Assembly: GCA_019454875.1 (NCBI GenBank)
Contig: JACFNL010000006.1
Coordinates: 1-64,000, forward strand
DNA length: 64,000 nt
From: Candidatus Cloacimonadota bacterium
GTDB lineage: Bacteria > Muiribacteriota > UBA6191
Reading direction: 5' to 3'
The translations under genes were made by a program, and so were the position numbers. The notes below the pieces were generated by a model. That model was given only the letters and a program-made list of their open reading frames with translations, did no database searches and had not been told where the DNA came from. Within the stretch, counting starts at the first letter, position 1. Each line of letters starts with the position of its first letter. This document shows positions 5,803 through 61,016 of this stretch, piece by piece.

Positions 5803-7410
5803 CTATCCAGCCAGAATTTCAATCTTTTTTCCCAAAAAGCCAATACCCATTTTTAGAATTTTAGCCGCTCCCTGGCTTTTTAACTCCTGCTCATATTGAC
5901 GGTTTTCGATTTGGGCCAGGGCATTTTTTGCACAGGCTACAAGATCGGAGTCCTCGTAAGAATCCATGGTTTTAAACTCCATCACAATTCCATAATGGTC
6001 TGGATTTTTGGGAGTCATCAAAAGATCGCAGCGGCCAAGGCCGGATTCCCGGTTGGAACGAATATGCCAAGTATCGGAATAATAAGACATCAAACCTAAA
6101 ACCAGTCCATGGTAAAACTTCTCTGGTTCGTTGCCCGATGCATCAAAATAGCTTAGGGAAGTGTCGCAAAGTTTTCGTAGGGCTTTGCAAATTTCTGTTA
6201 CATTTCCAGACATTAGAGAATTTTTCAGATTGGGCAACAGTGCACTGGATTCACTCTTTTGAAACCACAATTGCACAGAATCTTCAAAAATGTGATGTAT
6301 CTCTAAATTAGGAATTTTTAACTGAACTCTGGTTTTAACAGCCTCAGAGGGGCCATCAATTTTTACGGCCTTTAAATATCCTGTGAAATAAAAGAAGTTC
6401 CACAGATTAGCCGGGGAGTTTTCAATCTCCTGAAACACTACATGTTCCTGTAATGGGACAGTAATGCTTTGGCCCGTCATCAAATCCTCAAGATCCCTTT
6501 TGGCCTGTGCTCCGGTTCTACTTAAAATTTCTTTGACAAGATCATTGCCACTAGTGTTGATCCAGTAGTTTCTAAACTCACCCTGATTTTTTAAAAGGTT
6601 TAGACTAGACCAGGGATTATAAAGCGTGGTTTCCCCAAACAGATAACCGTTGTACCATGCCTCAATCTGAGTATCAATTGCAGAAAGGTTATAGTCCTGA
6701 ATCAACTGTTTGACCTCTGGCACAGTAAAACCAAAATGTCTGGCATAACCTTTGGATGAGACAGAAGCCGCCTCCAGATTGTTCATACCAGTAAACATGC
6801 TTTCTCTGGCAACCCGAAGGCAGCCCGTGATTACTGCGCGCCACACATTGGGATTATCCTTAAAACCAGCACTAAAGAAGTTTCTAAAAAATGTGATAGC
6901 TTCATCCCAGTAGCCTTCTGCCCAGGCGGATTGTAAGGGGACATCGTATTCATCAATTAATATCAGGGGACCTGGACCGATTGAGGCATAGGCCCTAGTG
7001 AGGTTGAAAAGCAAATTACAAAAATCTGCAAAATTGCCCTGATTTTGAGAAACAATCAGAATGGGCTGTAGAAGTTTGTGTTCTACCTTTATAAGGGCCG
7101 ATAGGTGCTCCAGACTCATTCTTTGCAGAAGATCGTATAACATATCTTCCGTTTTGAGCCAGTCATTGGCCTTACAATCCTTAAATGATAAATGAATTAC
7201 CGGGCGAGTGCCTTGCAAGGCCATGACCTTTTCATTTTCAGAAACCTTAAGACCCTTAAAAAGTTTGCGGTTTTCTTGGGCGTTTTCCTGATCAAAAAAG
7301 TACTTGAGGGTGGAAAGATTTAAGGTTTTCCCAAAACGGCGGGGGCGAGTGATTAAAAGGATTTTGGCAGAATCAGTTAAAAATTCCTCAATCAGCTCCG
7401 TTTTATCCAC
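5803..7410 (-). CDS. AAA-ATPase-like / PD-(D/E)XK nuclease family protein, copy 2, disrupted 5' end
   Basis: This protein is homologous to the gene at 999-2675 along most of its length (RPRRFGKTLNLSTLKYFF, LILIDEYDVPLQSAWAE, GRCDLLMTPK, GIVMEFKT). The natural start is the ATG at 7474-7476, directly after the TAA of the upstream gene. Codon 3 there is TAG (7468-7470) where copy 1 has AAG, after which homology continues at once (IPIGHSDF). The coordinates given begin at the next usable start, a GTG at 7408-7410, which drops about 22 conserved residues. It may be a fresh pseudogene or may be expressed by re-initiation. The central 90 residues are unrelated to copy 1. Confidence 0.75.
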   Translation of the reverse strand: MDKTELIEEFLTDSAKILLITRPRRFGKTLNLSTLKYFFDQENAQENRKLFKGLKVSENEKVMALQGTRPVIHLSFKDCKANDWLKTEDMLYDLLQRMSLEHLSALIKVEHKLLQPILIVSQNQGNFADFCNLLFNLTRAYASIGPGPLILIDEYDVPLQSAWAEGYWDEAITFFRNFFSAGFKDNPNVWRAVITGCLRVARESMFTGMNNLEAASVSSKGYARHFGFTVPEVKQLIQDYNLSAIDTQIEAWYNGYLFGETTLYNPWSSLNLLKNQGEFRNYWINTSGNDLVKEILSRTGAQAKRDLEDLMTGQSITVPLQEHVVFQEIENSPANLWNFFYFTGYLKAVKIDGPSEAVKTRVQLKIPNLEIHHIFEDSVQLWFQKSESSALLPNLKNSLMSGNVTEICKALRKLCDTSLSYFDASGNEPEKFYHGLVLGLMSYYSDTWHIRSNRESGLGRCDLLMTPKNPDHYGIVMEFKTMDSYEDSDLVACAKNALAQIENRQYEQELKSQGAAKILKMGIGFLGKKIEILAG

Positions 7411-46513: not shown

Positions 46514-46906
46514 CTACTCCGCAAAAAGCTGGACGGCCTGTTTGTGAAAGTAGTTCAGAACCAGATTTCGCAGTTCCATCAGGTCGCAGTCTGATTTGGC
46601 GAGAAAGTCTTCGATGCCAAGGTTGTTAAAGGTGCGGATGTAATTTTCCTGAACATGGGCCGTGAGAACAAAGATGCCTACCTTGTCATTTAAGGTTCGG
46701 ATTTTTTTCAAAAATTCTACGCCATTCATTTCGGGCATGTGAATGTCGGTAAAAATCAGATCGTAAGAGTCTGACTGGAATCGTTCCAGGGCTAAAACAC
46801 CATTTTCGGCCACATGGACAATGACATTGGGCAGGGCTTGAAGTGCATCACAAAGCAGTTGTGCAAACAGTCTTTCATCTTCAACAATCAAGATTTTTTT
46901 TTCCAT
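46514..46906 (-). CDS. CheY-like single-domain response regulator
   Basis: A 130-residue receiver domain with no output domain: KKILIVEDERLFAQLL (acidic pair Glu9/Asp10), phospho-acceptor Asp54 in LIFTDIHMPEMNGVEFLKK, Thr82 in FVLTAH and Lys104 in FLAKS. All catalytic residues are present, so it should be phosphorylated by a histidine kinase and act by binding a partner. No kinase or chemotaxis gene adjoins it. The FliM-N-repeat protein at 53856-55628 is a plausible partner (inference). A TATGAT six bases before the ATG suggests a leaderless mRNA. Confidence 0.93.
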   Translation of the reverse strand: MEKKILIVEDERLFAQLLCDALQALPNVIVHVAENGVLALERFQSDSYDLIFTDIHMPEMNGVEFLKKIRTLNDKVGIFVLTAHVQENYIRTFNNLGIEDFLAKSDCDLMELRNLVLNYFHKQAVQLFAE

Positions 46907-53300: not shown

Positions 53301-53867
53301 ATGTTTTTTGTTGAAGATGTTATGCTAAGTGATGCAATTCGGTACACCCGTTTTGGCTGCCGTCTTATGACATGCAAAGGTAAATGCTGTGAGGAGGGGG
53401 ATAGTGGTGCTCCTCTTACCGAACTTGAAGCCCAGACAATTGAAGCAATCCTGCCAATTGTGGCTTCAGAGCTAGAGCCGTCTGGATTGCAGGTGGCGAG
53501 CAGGCGGGCAGTGGTTCGTGAACAAGGCAGGCCACATACCCCGTTAGTTGGGGAAGCTGGGCCATGCGCCTATCTGATTCCTGGTGAAGGCTCGGTTAAA
53601 ATCTGTGCCTTTGAAAAACTTTTTAAAGAGGGAAAAATCGGATTTTTGAAACCCGTTTCCTGCCATTTGTTTCCACTGATTTTTAAAGAAACCATGTTTT
53701 ATCGCTCATTATCTTTGCAGACCAGGGAATCCTGCATGTCTTCTTATGGAGCAGCCGGGCCTCATATTGTAGAATTTTTGAAAGAACCCCTGATTCGTCA
53801 GTTTGGGGAAGATTGGGTAAAAAAATTGTTTCTTGAGCTTAACTTAACCTTTGAATCAGACTCCTGA
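53301..53867 (+). CDS. DUF3109 family cysteine-cluster protein
   Basis: A 188-residue protein with the family core CKGKCCEEGDSGAPLTELEA (about 27-46) and further cysteines in GPCAYL, ICAFE, SCHLFP and ESCMSS, a probable metal-cluster site related to the YkgJ group. Reaction unknown. I chose the ATG at 53301 because the alignment with the family (VEDVMLSDAIRYTRF) begins there; an upstream ATG at 53238 would place the promoter inside the gene. Its end overlaps the convergent gene by 12 bases. Confidence 0.85.
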   Translation: MFFVEDVMLSDAIRYTRFGCRLMTCKGKCCEEGDSGAPLTELEAQTIEAILPIVASELEPSGLQVASRRAVVREQGRPHTPLVGEAGPCAYLIPGEGSVKICAFEKLFKEGKIGFLKPVSCHLFPLIFKETMFYRSLSLQTRESCMSSYGAAGPHIVEFLKEPLIRQFGEDWVKKLFLELNLTFESDS

Positions 53868-55628
53868 ACCCAGACTTTCCAGTGTGACAAGTGTGTCCTG
53901 AAACTCGTTGGGCTTGGTTGTTACTTCAGGATCCAGATTTAAACCCTGTTTGACCAGTCGGTTAAAATCCTGCCAGACCTGTTGTCCTGGGGTGGCGAGC
54001 TTCCGGTCAGAAACTTCGGCTAGAAAGTCGAGCTGGTATACCTTGTTATTTTGTAATACAAACACGGATCTTTTGGCGATATAACCCCGGTTCTGCTGAC
54101 CTGAAGGATGGGGGAATACATAATCTACCAAAAACACCTCATCGCCCCAGTATTTGTCGGCTACACTGAAATAATCATTCTGGTACCTGGTCGAATAATA
54201 GGCTGCAAGGTTACTGCGTAACTGTTCCAAAGTACCGGCTTCCGAGGCATTCAGAACAGAAAAGGTTCCTCGAAGGTTACTTTCAGGATCGGGATAGAAG
54301 CGGTATTTGGTTGAAGAACGGGAATCAGGATTTTTTTCCCACTTCCATTCACTAAGCCCTGATTTTACAACAGGAGCAGGAATCTGATAGAACTCATAGA
54401 ACCTAAATCCGGCTCCACCAAGAAGCCCAAGGATGGAGATAGCTGCCAAGTTGCGCACAAATCGAATCATCAGGGTAAAAATTCCAGGACTGTTATTCTG
54501 TTGTGTCTGATTGTGGGTATTATTGTTCATTGGTCCATTCTGGCGACGATCCCGCCTTTGAATCAGTTCATCGACCTGTGTTTTGCCTGAGTCGGATACC
54601 TTAGGTTCTTCCAGGCGGGACAGTTCCTGGGAAATACTTTCTGTTTTCTGAATCAACTCTTCAAGATCCGCTGAATATGTGTCAGCCACCAGCTCTTTGA
54701 CGGGCTGTGGTTTTGCTGGCTCACTTTCCAGATTGGCCTTGCGCATCATTTCCGCCAAATCGGATTGAGACAGGATTGCATCCGGTTCGGCATCAAGCAG
54801 GGGAGCCATCTCAAGTCCAACCGAGACTGGAGCCTGTTTAACCGGAGCCTGTTTAGCCGGGGGTTCGGGAATTTTGATTTCAGATTCTTTGGTATCAAAA
54901 AGATCATCAGTAGATACCTGAATTTCCTTTTGAGTTTTGGCAATCAGGGCTTGAATATCGTCATGAGAAAGTACAGCGTCACTGTCACTATCCATGGTAG
55001 TAGCATTGGCTGCCTCAACTAAAGCAGCAATCTGATCTGGTGATAGGGGGGCATCGTCGTCAGGGTCCATGGAACTATGCAGAATTGATGGGACTTTAGG
55101 TGCGGGAGCAAAGACCTGTGGCTCAGGTTCAAGAGCAGGTGCTGGAGCTGGTGCTGGGCTTTGGGCTTCACGGATCAATGCCTCTATGTCATCGGAAGAC
55201 ATGATTTCATCTTTACTAGGGCTAGAGGTTTCTACCTTGGCTACAGCTGGTTCAGGTTCAGGTTCTGGTTCAGGCTGGGGCTCAGGTTGTGGTTCAGGTT
55301 CAGGCTTAGCTGCCTGAGTGGTGGATTTAATCAATGCGTCAATATCGCCTTGACTTAACATTCCATCGTCTGGTTCCATTTTAGAGCTCTGAGGCTCAGG
55401 CTTGGGTTCCTCTTGGGCTGGGGAGTCTGTAGCAGAGGCACTAGGAGTATCGGCAGTGTCTTTGGTCTCATTCTCTTCGGCTTCTTTAGCCTTGTCTGGA
55501 TCCTCGGGAGGATTCAAAATATTTTCGTTGGTTGCATTGAGGGTATTTTCGGGGAATAGGCTGGCTACGGCGTATTTTTCCGCCTCTGTAAATAGATCCT
55601 GAATTTCCCGATCGGTGAACTGTGACAT
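53856..55628 (-). CDS. Membrane protein with tandem FliM-N-like (CheY-binding) motifs
   Basis: A 590-residue protein. Residues 1-380 are cytosolic and disordered, rich in Pro, Glu, Asp and Ala, but carry a repeated short motif: MLSQGDIDALI (90-100), MSSDDIEALI (143-152), PLSPDQIAALV (194-204), VLSHDDIQALI (219-229) and ILSQSDLAEMM (285-295). Weaker copies occur at FTDREIQDLF (4-13), SADLEELI (319-326) and QVDELI. The copies match the N-terminus of the flagellar switch protein FliM (ILSQAEIDALL), which binds phospho-CheY. A membrane helix follows at about 385-405, then a 180-residue periplasmic domain that I do not recognise. It is the last gene of the pilin-like operon. Function inferred only. 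Confidence 0.75.
   Translation of the reverse strand: MSQFTDREIQDLFTEAEKYAVASLFPENTLNATNENILNPPEDPDKAKEAEENETKDTADTPSASATDSPAQEEPKPEPQSSKMEPDDGMLSQGDIDALIKSTTQAAKPEPEPQPEPQPEPEPEPEPAVAKVETSSPSKDEIMSSDDIEALIREAQSPAPAPAPALEPEPQVFAPAPKVPSILHSSMDPDDDAPLSPDQIAALVEAANATTMDSDSDAVLSHDDIQALIAKTQKEIQVSTDDLFDTKESEIKIPEPPAKQAPVKQAPVSVGLEMAPLLDAEPDAILSQSDLAEMMRKANLESEPAKPQPVKELVADTYSADLEELIQKTESISQELSRLEEPKVSDSGKTQVDELIQRRDRRQNGPMNNNTHNQTQQNNSPGIFTLMIRFVRNLAAISILGLLGGAGFRFYEFYQIPAPVVKSGLSEWKWEKNPDSRSSTKYRFYPDPESNLRGTFSVLNASEAGTLEQLRSNLAAYYSTRYQNDYFSVADKYWGDEVFLVDYVFPHPSGQQNRGYIAKRSVFVLQNNKVYQLDFLAEVSDRKLATPGQQVWQDFNRLVKQGLNLDPEVTTKPNEFQDTLVTLESLGSGV
54744..55361 (-). repeat. Coding repeat: five LSxxDIxALI motifs
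   Basis: The five best motif copies are each preceded by an acidic stretch (MEPDDG, SPSKDE, MDPDDD, MDSDSD, DAEPDA) and spaced 25-66 residues apart by Pro/Ala/Glu-rich linkers. The repeats agree in protein but not closely in DNA, so they are old or under protein-level selection. Confidence 0.8.
55248..55304 (-). repeat. Short tandem Pro-Glu/Pro-Gln coding repeat
   Basis: Residues about 109-127 of the FliM-motif protein are a run of alternating Pro with Glu or Gln, encoded by a nearly regular hexamer repeat (read on the plus strand as GGTTCA/GGCTCA-type units). It is a stiff linker and a likely site of repeat-number change. Confidence 0.7.
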
Positions 55629-55672: not shown

Positions 55673-57292
55673 CTAGAGGTCCTGTAGAAAATCTTTAATT
55701 TGAATTTCAGGAATTTTCAGCAGTTTCTCTTTTGAAACAAAAAGATCAGAATCATTTAAGTCCTGATTTAAAAATCCCTGATCAAACAGGGATGGCATGG
55801 ACTGTGATTTACTGCCAGCACTCATTCTGTATTCGGTTGGATTGTAAGCCACAACTTTAGTATTGAGCCCCTGTCCAAACCGCATTTGAGTGCCAGATTG
55901 AAGTTTTGTTGTTTCTATTTTGGTATCTACCGTCAGTTCACCCTGGACTACACCGGCTGTGGAATAGTCAGGATGGTGGCGGGCTAGATGGTAACTTCCG
56001 ATTTTTCCTTCAATCCTGCCATGACTGGTCTGACAGGCAAATGCCTTCTCTTTGTCCTTAACTGTGATTTTGATACTTCCTGTATCCAGATGAAATTCAT
56101 TGTGGGCGATAACCCTTAAGTCGGAGGCTGCTTCGAGAACGATGTCGGCATGTGATGTTTTAAGATAGGCATCTGAACTTGAGGTTCTAAGAAATTCTCC
56201 AGCACGAACAGGACTGTTTTGGCCATTTAACTCAAAAAAACCAACAGGTGGATTAAACTGATCCATGTTTTGCAAAAGACTCATTGTGTTTGTAGTGCTT
56301 TTGACTTCGGATACGGTTTCACTTCGGACAGGGTTTATAGTTTTGTATATGGAGCCACAAAAGAAAACTACAATAACTGCCAAAGCTGGTTTCACCAGGG
56401 CTGTGGCCTGCTTCTCCTCAACCTGATTTTTCCAGGGCTCAGTACTGAATCCATCGGCTTCAGAGTTTTCCAGTTCCTGTTTTTCCTGAAGCTGCCGGAT
56501 CTCATTTTGTCTGCGGATTGCTTCAATCATCGAGGAAGGTTCTGAGCTTTTTTCTTTAGGTGGCTCCCATTGGGGGTACAAGGAATGTACATGGGTGTAA
56601 ATACTTTTTTCTTCAAACCGGTCACGAAAGTCGATTCTTAAACCCTGGAGAAGTCGATGCATTCTCTGGTGAAAGGGTACAGTATTCAAAATCTGCTGCT
56701 TTGAGTTTAGCTGGTCTACAAACTGGGTCAACTCTTCTGCGGCAGTGAGTGATGGGTCCTTGGCCGGGTGTCCCATTAACTGATCCAGGATTGTATACAG
56801 GTGGGCTTCCAGTACGGGTTCAGAAATTCCCAACAAGCGAGCTGTTCTTTTGGAACCGAGTCCCTCCAGGACACACAAATCAAGCAGAAACTTTCTGGGG
56901 CTGGAAAGCTGGGTTCTTCTAAGAATGGAAACGGTATCCCGATCGGGCAGGGAGTCCTTATCAAAAAACTTGTCCGACAGGGGTTGTAAATGAGTCTCTT
57001 CGTAGGCACATTCACGAACCCGGCCCAAAAACGCCTTGGCCGGTTCCGGTTTGTCCCTCAAAACCAGTTTGAGCGCACCGGTTAGCAGTAGCATATTCAG
57101 TGGCTCACTCTTGGATTGCCGGATTTTTGAGTCCCGTAATCGGCCCAAAATTTCGGCACTCCAGTTCCATGCCAATGACCTATCCTCCGTAAAATAGGTA
57201 AAAAAATGGCATAGGCAGGGATTCCCCTCGGTCCAGAGGCTTAAATAATCTTCTGCATCAGAAACCTTTGCCATGACGGAATCGTTCTCCAT
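55673..57292 (-). CDS. Sigma-region-4-like HTH / transmembrane / FecR-domain fusion protein
   Basis: A 539-residue protein. Residues about 130-172 (SSPRKFLLDLCVLEGLGSKR, TARLLGISEPVLEAHLYTIL) read like the helix-turn-helix of ECF sigma region 4. The 110 residues before it have a helical pattern that may be a worn sigma region 2. A charged coiled coil (255-280) leads to one membrane helix (about 298-314). The periplasmic part at about 350-475 matches FecR (ELNGQNSPVRAGEFLRTSSS, DLRVIAHNEFHLDTGSIKIT, VVQGELTVDT). FecR proteins are normally separate anti-sigma regulators, so both halves being in one chain is unusual. The start overlaps the upstream pilin-like gene. Confidence 0.65.
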   Translation of the reverse strand: MENDSVMAKVSDAEDYLSLWTEGNPCLCHFFTYFTEDRSLAWNWSAEILGRLRDSKIRQSKSEPLNMLLLTGALKLVLRDKPEPAKAFLGRVRECAYEETHLQPLSDKFFDKDSLPDRDTVSILRRTQLSSPRKFLLDLCVLEGLGSKRTARLLGISEPVLEAHLYTILDQLMGHPAKDPSLTAAEELTQFVDQLNSKQQILNTVPFHQRMHRLLQGLRIDFRDRFEEKSIYTHVHSLYPQWEPPKEKSSEPSSMIEAIRRQNEIRQLQEKQELENSEADGFSTEPWKNQVEEKQATALVKPALAVIVVFFCGSIYKTINPVRSETVSEVKSTTNTMSLLQNMDQFNPPVGFFELNGQNSPVRAGEFLRTSSSDAYLKTSHADIVLEAASDLRVIAHNEFHLDTGSIKITVKDKEKAFACQTSHGRIEGKIGSYHLARHHPDYSTAGVVQGELTVDTKIETTKLQSGTQMRFGQGLNTKVVAYNPTEYRMSAGSKSQSMPSLFDQGFLNQDLNDSDLFVSKEKLLKIPEIQIKDFLQDL

Positions 57293-58151
57293 TAAACAGG
57301 GGATTCACTACAAAAAAACTGGTGGAAATGCTTCGTCCTTCCGGGCCAGAGCCTTGCCTTTCCCCTTGAAATACCATTTTAGTATGATGATAGACCTTGG
57401 TCAGTCTGAGATTAAACTTTGAAGGTTCTTCCTTGTCTCTAAAGTAGGAGAATTCAAAACCTGGTTCAATACTGAAGTGCTCGATTCGGCCTTCTGCCCC
57501 GTGAAGCTGCCCAAATCGATGCGTTTCCTCTCCCTCGCCCGGGCCAGTCATTCTGGAGACAAAATTCAGTTTTTCCTTGCCGCTTAAATCACTCAGATAG
57601 TGTCTATACCAGACTTTTTCACCCTTGACACCAATGTAGTACTCGCGAACCTTGGCAGAAATAGGTTCTTCGATGTCCCGGCTGACTACGGCAAATGAAT
57701 TGAGCATAAATTCAGGATGGTCATTAAGCACCACTTTTTTGTCAAAAAAGTGGTCGTATTTATCCTCATATTCATAATACATCTGGCCGTTGGCTCCAAA
57801 TTTTTCCCGAGGCAGCCTTTGGATGGGCAAAACCTCAATTGTGTCAGAGACAGCGTTGACATCATCATAAACCACACAGGGGAAAAAGCGGGGCTGGATT
57901 GGAAATGGTTTTTTGTGCTGGTGTAAATCAACAGGTGCATCGCTTTTGGTGAATCCTTGAGCATCGTACAAATCCTGTCGCAAAACCATGATGAAATTTT
58001 GCATGTCCTTGATTGTGCTTAAGGTTTCTTCACCTTTAAAGGAGTTTCGTAATGATTCAATAAAATAGGTGTAGATTCCTATCAGAAGAACGGCGGCCAC
58101 CCCCACTGCAAACACAGCTTCAATCAAGGTAAAACCGTGCCGTGTTTTCAT
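57258..58151 (-). CDS. Type IV prepilin-like protein (PilW/GspJ-like)
   Basis: A 297-residue protein from the ATG at 58149-58151, giving MKTRHGFTLIEAVFAVGVAA, a textbook prepilin peptidase site (G-F-T-L-I-E) and helix. The globular part is large and beta-rich, as in PilW or GspJ minor pilins. The start overlaps the upstream stop (ATGA). A longer frame upstream would lack a prepilin leader of normal length. Confidence 0.85.
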   Translation of the reverse strand: MKTRHGFTLIEAVFAVGVAAVLLIGIYTYFIESLRNSFKGEETLSTIKDMQNFIMVLRQDLYDAQGFTKSDAPVDLHQHKKPFPIQPRFFPCVVYDDVNAVSDTIEVLPIQRLPREKFGANGQMYYEYEDKYDHFFDKKVVLNDHPEFMLNSFAVVSRDIEEPISAKVREYYIGVKGEKVWYRHYLSDLSGKEKLNFVSRMTGPGEGEETHRFGQLHGAEGRIEHFSIEPGFEFSYFRDKEEPSKFNLRLTKVYHHTKMVFQGERQGSGPEGRSISTSFFVVNPLFNGERFRHGKGF

Positions 58152-58669
58152 TGTAAATATACCTCGTCCCTGGTCATTACGGTTTTTAACTCTAAAGACC
58201 GGTTGTATTCGCTGGCTCCAGGGGTTATCCATTCCACACGAACGGCGAGAACCTTGGCATCGGGCATAGGACGATGGTTTTCACTGGAACCGATGTTGGC
58301 AGGATAAATTTTTATCATGCGCCGAAATCGGTCTGGCATTGGAGAAAGTACAAGTTTACTTAAGGAGCGAATATCGGGATTTTTGAAATCTTCCCATAAG
58401 TAGGGGCGGGGCATGGCTGAGATATCAAGCCAGGGGTTTTTTTCGTTTTCATCCGAAATATTATTGATTCCATCCATACCCAATGACATCTTGATCGTAG
58501 TGATACTGTCAACTACCTCACGAGCAATGATCATGGCCTGAATTTCATCCAGGCTGGCCTCGGTCTGATGTATAGACTGGCGGAACATAAAAAACATGGG
58601 TATGGCCAGAAACAGAAGAAGCATTGAGGCAATGATGATTTCCACCAGTGAAAATGCTTTTTTACTCAT
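58148..58669 (-). CDS. Type IV prepilin-like protein (PilV/GspI-like)
   Basis: A 173-residue protein from the ATG at 58667-58669: MSKKAFSLVEIIIASMLLLF, a prepilin leader with Ala instead of Gly at the cleavage site and the conserved Glu at +5. The start overlaps the upstream gene by 8 bases. Its size fits PilV/GspI minor pilins that cap or start the pilus or pseudopilus. Confidence 0.82.
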   Translation of the reverse strand: MSKKAFSLVEIIIASMLLLFLAIPMFFMFRQSIHQTEASLDEIQAMIIAREVVDSITTIKMSLGMDGINNISDENEKNPWLDISAMPRPYLWEDFKNPDIRSLSKLVLSPMPDRFRRMIKIYPANIGSSENHRPMPDAKVLAVRVEWITPGASEYNRSLELKTVMTRDEVYLQ

Positions 58670-61016
58670 GCTCAATTCTTTTTTTTCCTTGATTGTGATC
58701 ATCCAATGCCATTCTATACATTTTCCAGCTGTCTGGAGCAAGTGGATTTAACCTAGGGTTATAGGTTAATGTAGTGGATGCCTGAAACATGGACAGATCC
58801 AGACGGGACACAGCCAGGGATCCCAAAATATGTACAATCTGTTCCGGGTTGGACTTGCGGATAGTGCCTGAAGAGGTTAGCTGGGCCTCGTAGAGAGTGG
58901 GGACTCCGGGGGGAGTGTTACCAGGATTCAAATGAATCTCGGAACATTCAAATCCTGCGTAAAATCCCTGGGATTCCACGGGAGCGAGATTACACATTCC
59001 GGCGACTATGATGCTGCTGTCTCCAGATAACACCACCGGAAGATCAAGGTTTAAATTGCCCCACAACCCAATTGTGCGCCCCTGGGTATTGAGATAAAAC
59101 ATCCCGCTGCCTCGCTTCAAAATTCCGGCATCCTCAAGTTTTTCCTGTTTGTCATAAAAAAAGCTGGCTCGTTTCAAAGAGGCGTGGGCCAGGTCATGAT
59201 AGTCGGGTATTCCCTTCAGATATGCTCCTGTAGGTGTCATACTCTTGGGGAGCTTCTGAACCCAGGTTTCCTCATCATCCTTGCCAGGAGATGGTCTTAA
59301 ACTGGGGGGGAAGCTGTAATCAAGAAAACTTTCGTGGGCATGGGGCGGAAATACCTTATGGGTATAATGAGGGAAATCGATTAAGTGATTTAAATGAACC
59401 CGGATTGTTTGGGCCATTATGGATTCATATTCCTGGTACTGAGGTGCAAGAAGCTCCCAGGAAAAATCGGGCTGGGCCAGCAGGTGGACTGGTTCTTCAC
59501 AATCTTCCACAAAGTTCATATTGGTCCACTGAAGTGGCAGGGGCTGATAAAAGGGAGGATTTTTATTCACAAATTCAAACTCGGTCAGATTGCGAATTAT
59601 GGCCGAACTTTCAAAATTGTGAACAGATTCAGGCAGGCAGCGGGCTCTTGAGCGTTCATCGGCATCACTTAGATCCCGGTCTATTCTTAAGGAGCTGAGT
59701 TTTGCTATTTCCAGATAGGCTTCTCCTACTGTGTAGGTTCTTGAAGGATAGTCTACAGAACCAAACACCTTCAAAAGAGATGATTCCGCAGAATATTGGG
59801 GAATATAGTAGGCAGGATTGGCAGGCCCGGTAGTCTCATAAAAGCCTTCGTAAAGTTCTTCCACCCATACGGATCCGGCATTGTCTGCAAGGGGTGGGGT
59901 TTCAGGATCCTCAAAAAAATAGGTAAACATCACTGGCTCGGTAAATCGTGGAGGGGGATCGAGTCTAATGTAATTTGGCAGACGAATCCTGTTGTCTCCA
60001 GTCACTTTGGCCCTGGTAGTAAAATAGTTGCGGTTAAGAATCATGAACTGCTGTCCGGCCGCTGCCATTCCCGGAGTCATCTTGAGCACACTGGACTGGG
60101 AGTTTCCAAGGTAAAGCCATCCTCTTTGATCAATAGAGGATTTGCTTAACTGAAGTTTGTTTGAATCCCTTAAAGAATCAAGGCCTTCCATTGTGTCAGG
60201 AGCGGGACCATAAATCTGGAGATCGGTTTTGATTTTTTCATCCTTTAAAGGACTGTGATACAGAAACATGGGGTAGTTGTACTGATATTTGAGGTTTCCA
60301 CCCTGGACAATAGGGACTCCGTTAATATCTGTGTACAGCCTCTGGTAATTACTAAAATTGGAGTCATTGTGCCAGAGAGTAAATCTGGACAAAACAGGCT
60401 GACCCAAGGAGTAGGATACCAGGGTCTTTGTCCTGACGGCCCCGCCTATCAGACCCTTAAAATCCACGGATGCGCCAAAGTTCAGGGCACACTGAATCAA
60501 GATGCTGTCTTGAAATTCAGACTCTTTGTCCAATCTGGGATGACATGAGTAGGCCAGTTTTAGCTGGTAGTCCTCTGCTCCGATCTGCTTCAAGAACAAA
60601 TCCATTGCCTTAACAGTCTGTCCCCGCTTCTTTAGCCATTCCACATTCTGTTCATGATTAATTTCTCCGTGCCCACCCTTGGGAAGCAATGAGAAGTTTC
60701 TGAGGAAGAATCCAAAATAGCCGGCATCTGTGTTGAGGCGATCTGAATTGATTGCACTCTCAAGGATTCTGTGATCCTGGGCACCCTCCACGCTGTCGCG
60801 AAAACCCAGTATAAACAGTTCCACCAACCCTTCTGCCGCTGTTTTTGCACTTTCTGCATAAAACATTCTGTGTGCATCACGATTTTGCTGTAAAGAACGG
60901 GAGTGTAGTGTCAAAAAAAGTATTCCAACGACACTAAGGATGCCAAGTACTATAAAAAGTACAAAGCCCCGGTTGTGAGAATATAGTCTTTTGGGAAAAA
61001 TAATTTGCATATCCAC
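58662..61016 (-). CDS. Large pilin-like membrane protein (PilX/GspK-like N-terminus)
   Basis: A 784-residue protein. The N-terminal segment is HNRGFVLFIVLGILSVVGIL, then HSRSLQQNRDAHRMFYAESA, as in PilX or GspK proteins: one hydrophobic helix after Arg-Gly and an alpha-helical stalk with Ala-Glu. The remaining 700 or so residues are periplasmic and not recognised; no CxxC or metal site stands out. It is much longer than usual PilX (about 200 residues) and could act as a tip adhesin like PilY1, which is speculation. It is the first gene of the five-gene minus-strand operon. Confidence 0.7.
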   Translation of the reverse strand: MDMQIIFPKRLYSHNRGFVLFIVLGILSVVGILFLTLHSRSLQQNRDAHRMFYAESAKTAAEGLVELFILGFRDSVEGAQDHRILESAINSDRLNTDAGYFGFFLRNFSLLPKGGHGEINHEQNVEWLKKRGQTVKAMDLFLKQIGAEDYQLKLAYSCHPRLDKESEFQDSILIQCALNFGASVDFKGLIGGAVRTKTLVSYSLGQPVLSRFTLWHNDSNFSNYQRLYTDINGVPIVQGGNLKYQYNYPMFLYHSPLKDEKIKTDLQIYGPAPDTMEGLDSLRDSNKLQLSKSSIDQRGWLYLGNSQSSVLKMTPGMAAAGQQFMILNRNYFTTRAKVTGDNRIRLPNYIRLDPPPRFTEPVMFTYFFEDPETPPLADNAGSVWVEELYEGFYETTGPANPAYYIPQYSAESSLLKVFGSVDYPSRTYTVGEAYLEIAKLSSLRIDRDLSDADERSRARCLPESVHNFESSAIIRNLTEFEFVNKNPPFYQPLPLQWTNMNFVEDCEEPVHLLAQPDFSWELLAPQYQEYESIMAQTIRVHLNHLIDFPHYTHKVFPPHAHESFLDYSFPPSLRPSPGKDDEETWVQKLPKSMTPTGAYLKGIPDYHDLAHASLKRASFFYDKQEKLEDAGILKRGSGMFYLNTQGRTIGLWGNLNLDLPVVLSGDSSIIVAGMCNLAPVESQGFYAGFECSEIHLNPGNTPPGVPTLYEAQLTSSGTIRKSNPEQIVHILGSLAVSRLDLSMFQASTTLTYNPRLNPLAPDSWKMYRMALDDHNQGKKRIEHE

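Follow-up and report, generated by a model that had tools for sequence, protein, structure and literature searches.

A membrane-anchored array of FliM-like peptides in one uncultivated bacterial family: a possible docking site for CheY-type receivers

The N-terminal peptide of FliM is known as the grip by which the flagellar switch holds phosphorylated CheY (CheY-P), and FimV, the polar hub of Pseudomonas, is known as a protein with a single membrane pass and an acidic tail. The FliM segment is disordered and folds upon binding to CheY-P, the binding element being LSQxEIDALL (PMC6700473, PMC9126983). In Caulobacter several CheY homologues (termed Cle proteins) compete for the N-terminal motif of FliM, and an Ile-Asp mutation of the motif abolished binding of one CheY homologue (PMC7534056); because several receivers compete for the motif there, it is plausible that it has further users. 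Archaeal CheF is an adaptor for CheY-P outside FliM, and its mode of binding CheY is a different one, which involves no EIDALL-type peptide in the α4/α5 groove (PMC9126983). In Pseudomonas, the localisation of PilG depends on both FimV and FimL (PMC12632253).

Here we describe a protein of 590 aa, with one membrane pass and an array of FliM-like motifs, which is encoded by an ATG-initiated open reading frame on the minus strand (53856..55628) of the window, that is, of the whole 64,000-nucleotide stretch of DNA that was analysed. The protein consists, in this order, of an acidic, Pro/Glu-rich cytosolic tail (aa 1-382), of its sole hydrophobic helix (about aa 383-411; 54396..54482, minus strand), and of a periplasmic domain (53859..54368, minus strand). 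The membrane helix has its hydropathy maximum at aa 383-404, coincides with an AlphaFold2 helix (383-411) and is assigned an N-in, C-out orientation from the flanking Arg-rich segment. Six motif copies precede it and none follow it. The protein matches no Pfam family, and specifically lacks, in the Pfam search, both the FliM middle domain (PF02154) and the FliMN_C domain; NCBIfam likewise yielded nothing above cut-off. The only NCBIfam match, lanmodulin, reached 18.5 of 135 bits, far under the cut-off, and was rejected; like those to Crp and DapH_N, this match is a chance one, owed to acidic or helical repeats.

An earlier note, made from the DNA alone, had named five FliM-like peptides, each with an acidic patch ahead of it and all on the cytosolic side of a single membrane helix, and these are indeed present as written. 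Proceeding from the N-terminus along the minus strand, they are: copy 1, MLSQGDIDALI (aa 90-100; 55329..55361), which is near-canonical and is preceded by the hexapeptide MEPDDG; copy 2, IMSSDDIEALI (aa 142-152; 55173..55205), preceded by SPSKDE; copy 3, PLSPDQIAALV (aa 194-204; 55017..55049), preceded by DPDDDA; copy 4, VLSHDDIQALI (aa 219-229; 54942..54974), preceded by DSDSDA; and copy 5, ILSQSDLAEMM (aa 285-295; 54744..54776), preceded by DAEPDA. The sixth is a divergent copy at the N-terminus itself, QFTDREIQDLF (aa 3-13; 55590..55622, minus strand). With just three sequences in the alignment, AlphaFold2 modelled the full protein at low confidence (mean pLDDT 45). In this model the N-terminal copy (6-24) and each of copies 1 to 5 (93-103, 145-156, 197-209, 222-236 and 288-300, respectively) has a helix of its own, which starts directly after the motif Ser/Thr, and the rest of the tail is largely unstructured.

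Modelled separately, the periplasmic domain reached a mean pLDDT of 58 and a pTM of 0.58, and its best Foldseek matches were PsbP, DcrB and EagT6/SciW (TM ~0.4-0.6, E about 5e-4). On the basis of this low-confidence model the domain is tentatively assigned a PsbP/DcrB-like fold, an assignment that concerns the fold only. The domain has no Pfam match, and a search of PDB sequences returned only chance matches to antibodies.

What the array shares with the N-terminal segment of FliM, FliN and FliY is a short motif with a Ser helix cap, an acidic-Ile step and an Ala-Leu-hydrophobic end, predicted to form a helix within a tail that the low-confidence model leaves otherwise largely unstructured (PMC6700473, PMC9126983). 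It differs from that segment in three ways: there are 6 to ~14 copies instead of 1-2; the copies sit on a membrane-anchored tail in a protein without a FliM/FliN domain; and the FliM-specific positions (the Q after S, the D in EIDALL, and the final L) are missing from most of the copies. We put at close to an even chance, though somewhat below it, the proposition that this protein is a membrane-anchored, multivalent dock for CheY-type receiver proteins in their phosphorylated state. The six motifs of its acidic, presumably disordered tail (~14 in a sister-genus relative) would be the sites, each forming a short amphipathic helix with Ser, Asn, Gly or Asp as its cap, like the FliM N-terminus bound to CheY-P. 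Having many sites of graded similarity, the dock could, by avidity, concentrate an activated regulator of the CheY type at the membrane or buffer it there; it would sit beside an envelope machine to which the neighbouring pseudopilin operon is linked, and would compete with the FliM and FliN of the same cell. We infer receiver binding, its dependence on phosphorylation, the identity of the receiver and the output from what is observed or predicted: the array and its conservation, the helices of the model, the membrane anchor, and the FliM, FliN and CheY proteins that the same genome encodes.

The resemblance to FliM can be expressed quantitatively. In a profile search of the kind that the earlier note had suggested, made against 19 distinct FliM and FliN N-terminal peptides, which were taken from the same phylum only, the top three copies (copies 1, 2 and 4) score 21.1, 15.7 and 14.9 bits, copies 3 and 5 score 8.9 and 6.0 bits, and the divergent N-terminal copy scores 2.8, the maximum in shuffled tails being 3.8 on average. 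Four windows of the protein exceed 8 bits on this profile, compared with a shuffle mean of 0.08 and a maximum of 2. Copy 1 lies between the scores of the divergent FliM N-termini from its own family (LMSQAAIDDLL at 23.3 bits and LLSQTDIDSLL at 20.3). A motif expression, which is independent of this profile and was composed after the motifs had been seen, finds 6 copies; when the cytosolic tail was shuffled 1000 times, it found 0.004 copies on average and never more than 1. Searched for throughout the genome (3.8 Mb), a strict DNA pattern occurs in 14 places, four of them inside the gene for the 590-aa protein and one in fliN. (A looser DNA pattern, with 812 matches, came close to its control and was dropped in favour of the stricter one.) Judged by sequence statistics, the motif copies in this protein are not due to chance.

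Homologues were found in 4 of the 77 genomes searched, the source genome (G000) included, and all four belong to one family. G001, which is of the same genus and is labelled UBP17_UBA6191, encodes a full-length homologue that is 78% identical; G002 and G003 represent a sister genus and encode distant homologues, of which that of G003 is 772 aa long. A search with the G003 repeat region gave no match outside the family within the phylum. The G002 gene is split over two contigs, its second half lying on L053. A 'Cloacimonadota' match, also L053, was considered as an independent occurrence and rejected, the stretch being this second half of the split gene (L053 vs L071). The L053 record is labelled Candidatus Cloacimonadota, yet it agrees both in this gene and in the order of genes with G002, a family-mate of the UBP17-labelled genome; the organism label on this record is probably wrong or outdated.

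The gene lies outside any chemotaxis or flagellar cluster. Upstream of it, and in the same orientation, is an operon gene (55673..57292, minus strand) whose product has a weak sigma-region-4-like part (Sigma70_r4_2, E=0.025), a membrane helix and a FecR-like C-terminal part (its G003 orthologue matches FecR at E=0.0095), and which is possibly a membrane-tethered sigma-like/FecR fusion in one chain. This gene was seen only in the same four genomes as the 590-aa protein. Further upstream, again on the minus strand, are two pseudopilin genes (57258-58232 and 58148-58741), identified by N_methyl matches, and a gene for a 784-aa prepilin-type (GspK/PilX-like) protein (58662-61016). The gene order is kept in both G002 and G003. 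Elsewhere, the genome contains 21 matches to secretion or pilus ATPases.

How far the likeness to FliM extends differs from copy to copy. Each of the four homologues has one near-canonical copy (MLSQGDIDALI, MLNQSDIDALI, ILSQDDIQGLL and ILSQDDIQDLL), which scores 19-21.5 bits; the other copies score mostly 5-12 bits, thereby overlapping the background, apart from the two at ~15 bits in the 590-aa protein. Thus, per protein, one copy is near the FliM sequence, and what the remainder preserve is mainly a generic pattern of helix capping, S-x-x-D-I-x-x-L. Broadened to S-x-x-D/E-I-x-x-L, this pattern is a common N-capped helix start, which is also present in two cytochrome-like proteins encoded by the genome, in one case with a score of 18.5 bits. 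The prevalence of this generic pattern is the main weakness of the dock reading, and the fact that the Ile-Asp pair is retained solely in the top copy of the first genus also counts against it, as do the frequent loss of the motif Ser in G002 and the position of the gene away from chemotaxis and flagellar clusters. Somewhat less probable than the dock reading, yet quite conceivable, is that the repeats are generic, capped amphipathic-helix docks to which a different multi-copy partner binds, such as a pilus or secretion component, or that they serve for self-association of the tail, the likeness to FliM being convergent. Most copies would suit such a role, retaining only hydrophobic-S/N/G-x-x-D-I-x-x-L-hydrophobic, as would the sister-genus array copies, whose 5-12 bits lie close to the best background matches, the similar helix start in the cytochrome-like proteins, and the operon neighbours, which are pseudopilin and FecR-like genes with no chemotaxis genes among them. 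Convergence fits less well, however, with the near-canonical copy in every homologue, with the occurrence of the same motif in the genome's own FliM and FliN, or with the acidic residues that, in FliM of this family too, precede the motif.

The dock reading had originally been framed, in the earlier note, for a non-flagellar setting, and this part of it did not stand. On another contig than that of the 590-aa gene, the genome encodes a FliM with the motif SDDLMSQAAIDDLL and, adjoining it, a FliN/FliY-type protein with the motif SVLSQEEIDALL; it also has 5 CheW-domain matches and 40 receiver domains, as well as two chemotaxis loci with canonical CheYs. In our own reading of the sequences, from which the gene names on these contigs derive, C36 and C129 carry CheY-type receivers next to che genes, and C21 carries a CheY of the Thermotoga type. 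Given FliM, FliN/FliY, CheW domains and CheY-type receivers, the cell is therefore genetically equipped for flagella and chemotaxis.

A motif common to the FliM and FliN of the genome, in the presence of canonical CheYs, might also serve a sink or competitor for CheY-P at the flagellar switch: the 590-aa protein would bind the C36 or C21 CheYs and lower free CheY-P near the motors, with no function in pili. In keeping with this, class-mates in which no FliM was detected are also without the protein, although the genomes of these class-mates are incomplete (72-83%). We nevertheless regard such a role as improbable: the gene has no linkage to flagellar genes, the protein is absent from many flagellated relatives within the phylum, and both its periplasmic domain and its operon point to a role in the envelope.

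The earlier note had set beforehand a test of conservation for the dock reading, namely whether homologues conserve the motifs as they do the periplasmic domain. Within the genus the motifs prove to be conserved at least as well as that domain, and the sister genus multiplies the motifs, its domain being ~19-24% identical. When G000 is compared with G001, 51 of the 55 positions in the five motifs (93%) and 180 of the 285 in the linkers (63%) are identical, a difference with a Fisher p of 6e-6 and, under random placement, a p of 0.005; copies 4 and 5 are identical at 11 of 11 positions each. The N-terminal copy is retained as well, aa 1-15 being identical in G001 and the aligned equivalent in G003 being MANFSDSEIQRIV. 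At the nucleotide level, pN is 0.031 in the motifs vs 0.233 in the linkers, with pS at 0.81 and 0.77; because silent sites are thus saturated in both while pN is so much lower in the motifs, the five motifs must be old and constrained. Such substitution patterns indicate that the motifs are under purifying selection relative to the linkers within the genus.

In the sister genus the array is enlarged to 12-14 copies. G003 has 14 regular copies, mostly DDDDSIMSPDDIANL[VI]; G002 has at least 8 copies in one half and 5 in the other, with overlap possible at the contig break, and its motif Ser is often replaced by G, D or E. Because 9 of 11 G003 array copies are nearly identical in DNA, they are recent duplications, as would also be seen in an expanding low-complexity acidic repeat that has no specific partner, a reading that we consider exceedingly improbable, contradicted as it is by the five copies of the first genus, which differ from one another, are old (as the saturated silent sites indicate) and are strongly conserved relative to the linkers. 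The G003 gene (L006:11319-13637) consists in part of tandem, near-identical units of ~90 bp within the coding sequence, an arrangement that points to recent turnover of the repeats, and the break in the G002 assembly falls inside the same tandem array.

If the protein is a dock for receivers, one possible but uncertain partner is a lone receiver-domain (CheY-like) protein encoded in the window at 46514..46906 on the minus strand (Response_reg, E=3e-25). Its alignment reveals the acidic pocket, phospho-Asp, Thr/Ser and Lys of receiver domains (D10, D54, the T-A after β4, and K104). It is one of the 40 receiver domains in the genome, and its operon is separate from that of the 590-aa gene. The gene is syntenic in all four genomes, near secA and prfB, and the signature GIE[DE]FLxKx[DE]CDL occurs in exactly those 4 of 37 genomes, a count that could miss distant orthologues, the signature having been derived from the same four. 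Orthologues in all four have K-[SD] plus one extra residue, compared with K-P in the CheYs of E. coli and Thermotoga and in the other chemotaxis CheYs of the genome. This K-[SD] adjoins the FliM-binding face, and both the CheY-type Lys-Pro and the usual β5-α5 sequence are absent; the best NCBIfam and PDB matches of the regulator are to RssB. By sequence it is thus a candidate, with some uncertainty, and not the favoured partner. The more specific proposal that the protein serves an undescribed chemotaxis output, in which the FliM-like array gathers CheY-P at a non-flagellar envelope machine (pilus or secretion), the ligand being this family-specific regulator ~7-8 kb away and avidity setting the response, strikes us as rather unlikely when taken as a whole.

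As a dock, the 590-aa protein would be analogous in function to FimV: like FimV it has a single membrane pass, and it would likewise recruit a CheY-like regulator to the membrane in the setting of a pilus. It differs in that it has no FimV, LysM or TPR match, in that its periplasmic part appears PsbP/DcrB-like, and in that its binding is proposed to be through FliM-like peptides. FimV would, by this analogy, be its closest functional analogue, and none of the tested FimV domains is shared. With archaeal CheF the protein would have in common that it acts as an adaptor for CheY-P outside FliM, whereas relative to Caulobacter the situation is reversed: that system has multiplied receivers and a single motif, this one a multiplied motif. 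No precedent for a protein with multiple copies of a FliM-type motif was found in the open-access literature that was searched. Two FliN/FliY-type proteins of the same phylum, L025 (398 aa) and L026 (396 aa), have, besides their N-terminal copy, an internal second motif, DDGLSQEEIDAMM at aa 243 and LLITNQDEIDAIL at aa 262, respectively; the motif has therefore been multiplied before, and these proteins provide a precedent for multiplicity.

What sets this protein apart is that, within one cell, a motif found in FliM and FliN is also multiplied and tethered to the membrane in a protein that has no flagellar domain, that belongs to no database family and that turned up in no more than four genomes, all of one uncultivated family. 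If the array does bind CheY-type receivers, then avidity could serve to buffer chemotaxis signals at another machine or to divert them to it. In that case the genome would also offer a natural set of strong and weak peptides for measuring how the number of sites and their individual residues matter.

At some distance from the array, the window contains two similar open reading frames, at 999-2675 on the plus strand and 5803-7410 on the minus strand, each of which opens with an AAA-ATPase-like segment (LLITRPRRFGKTLNLSTL) and which possibly represent a mobile or repeated family.
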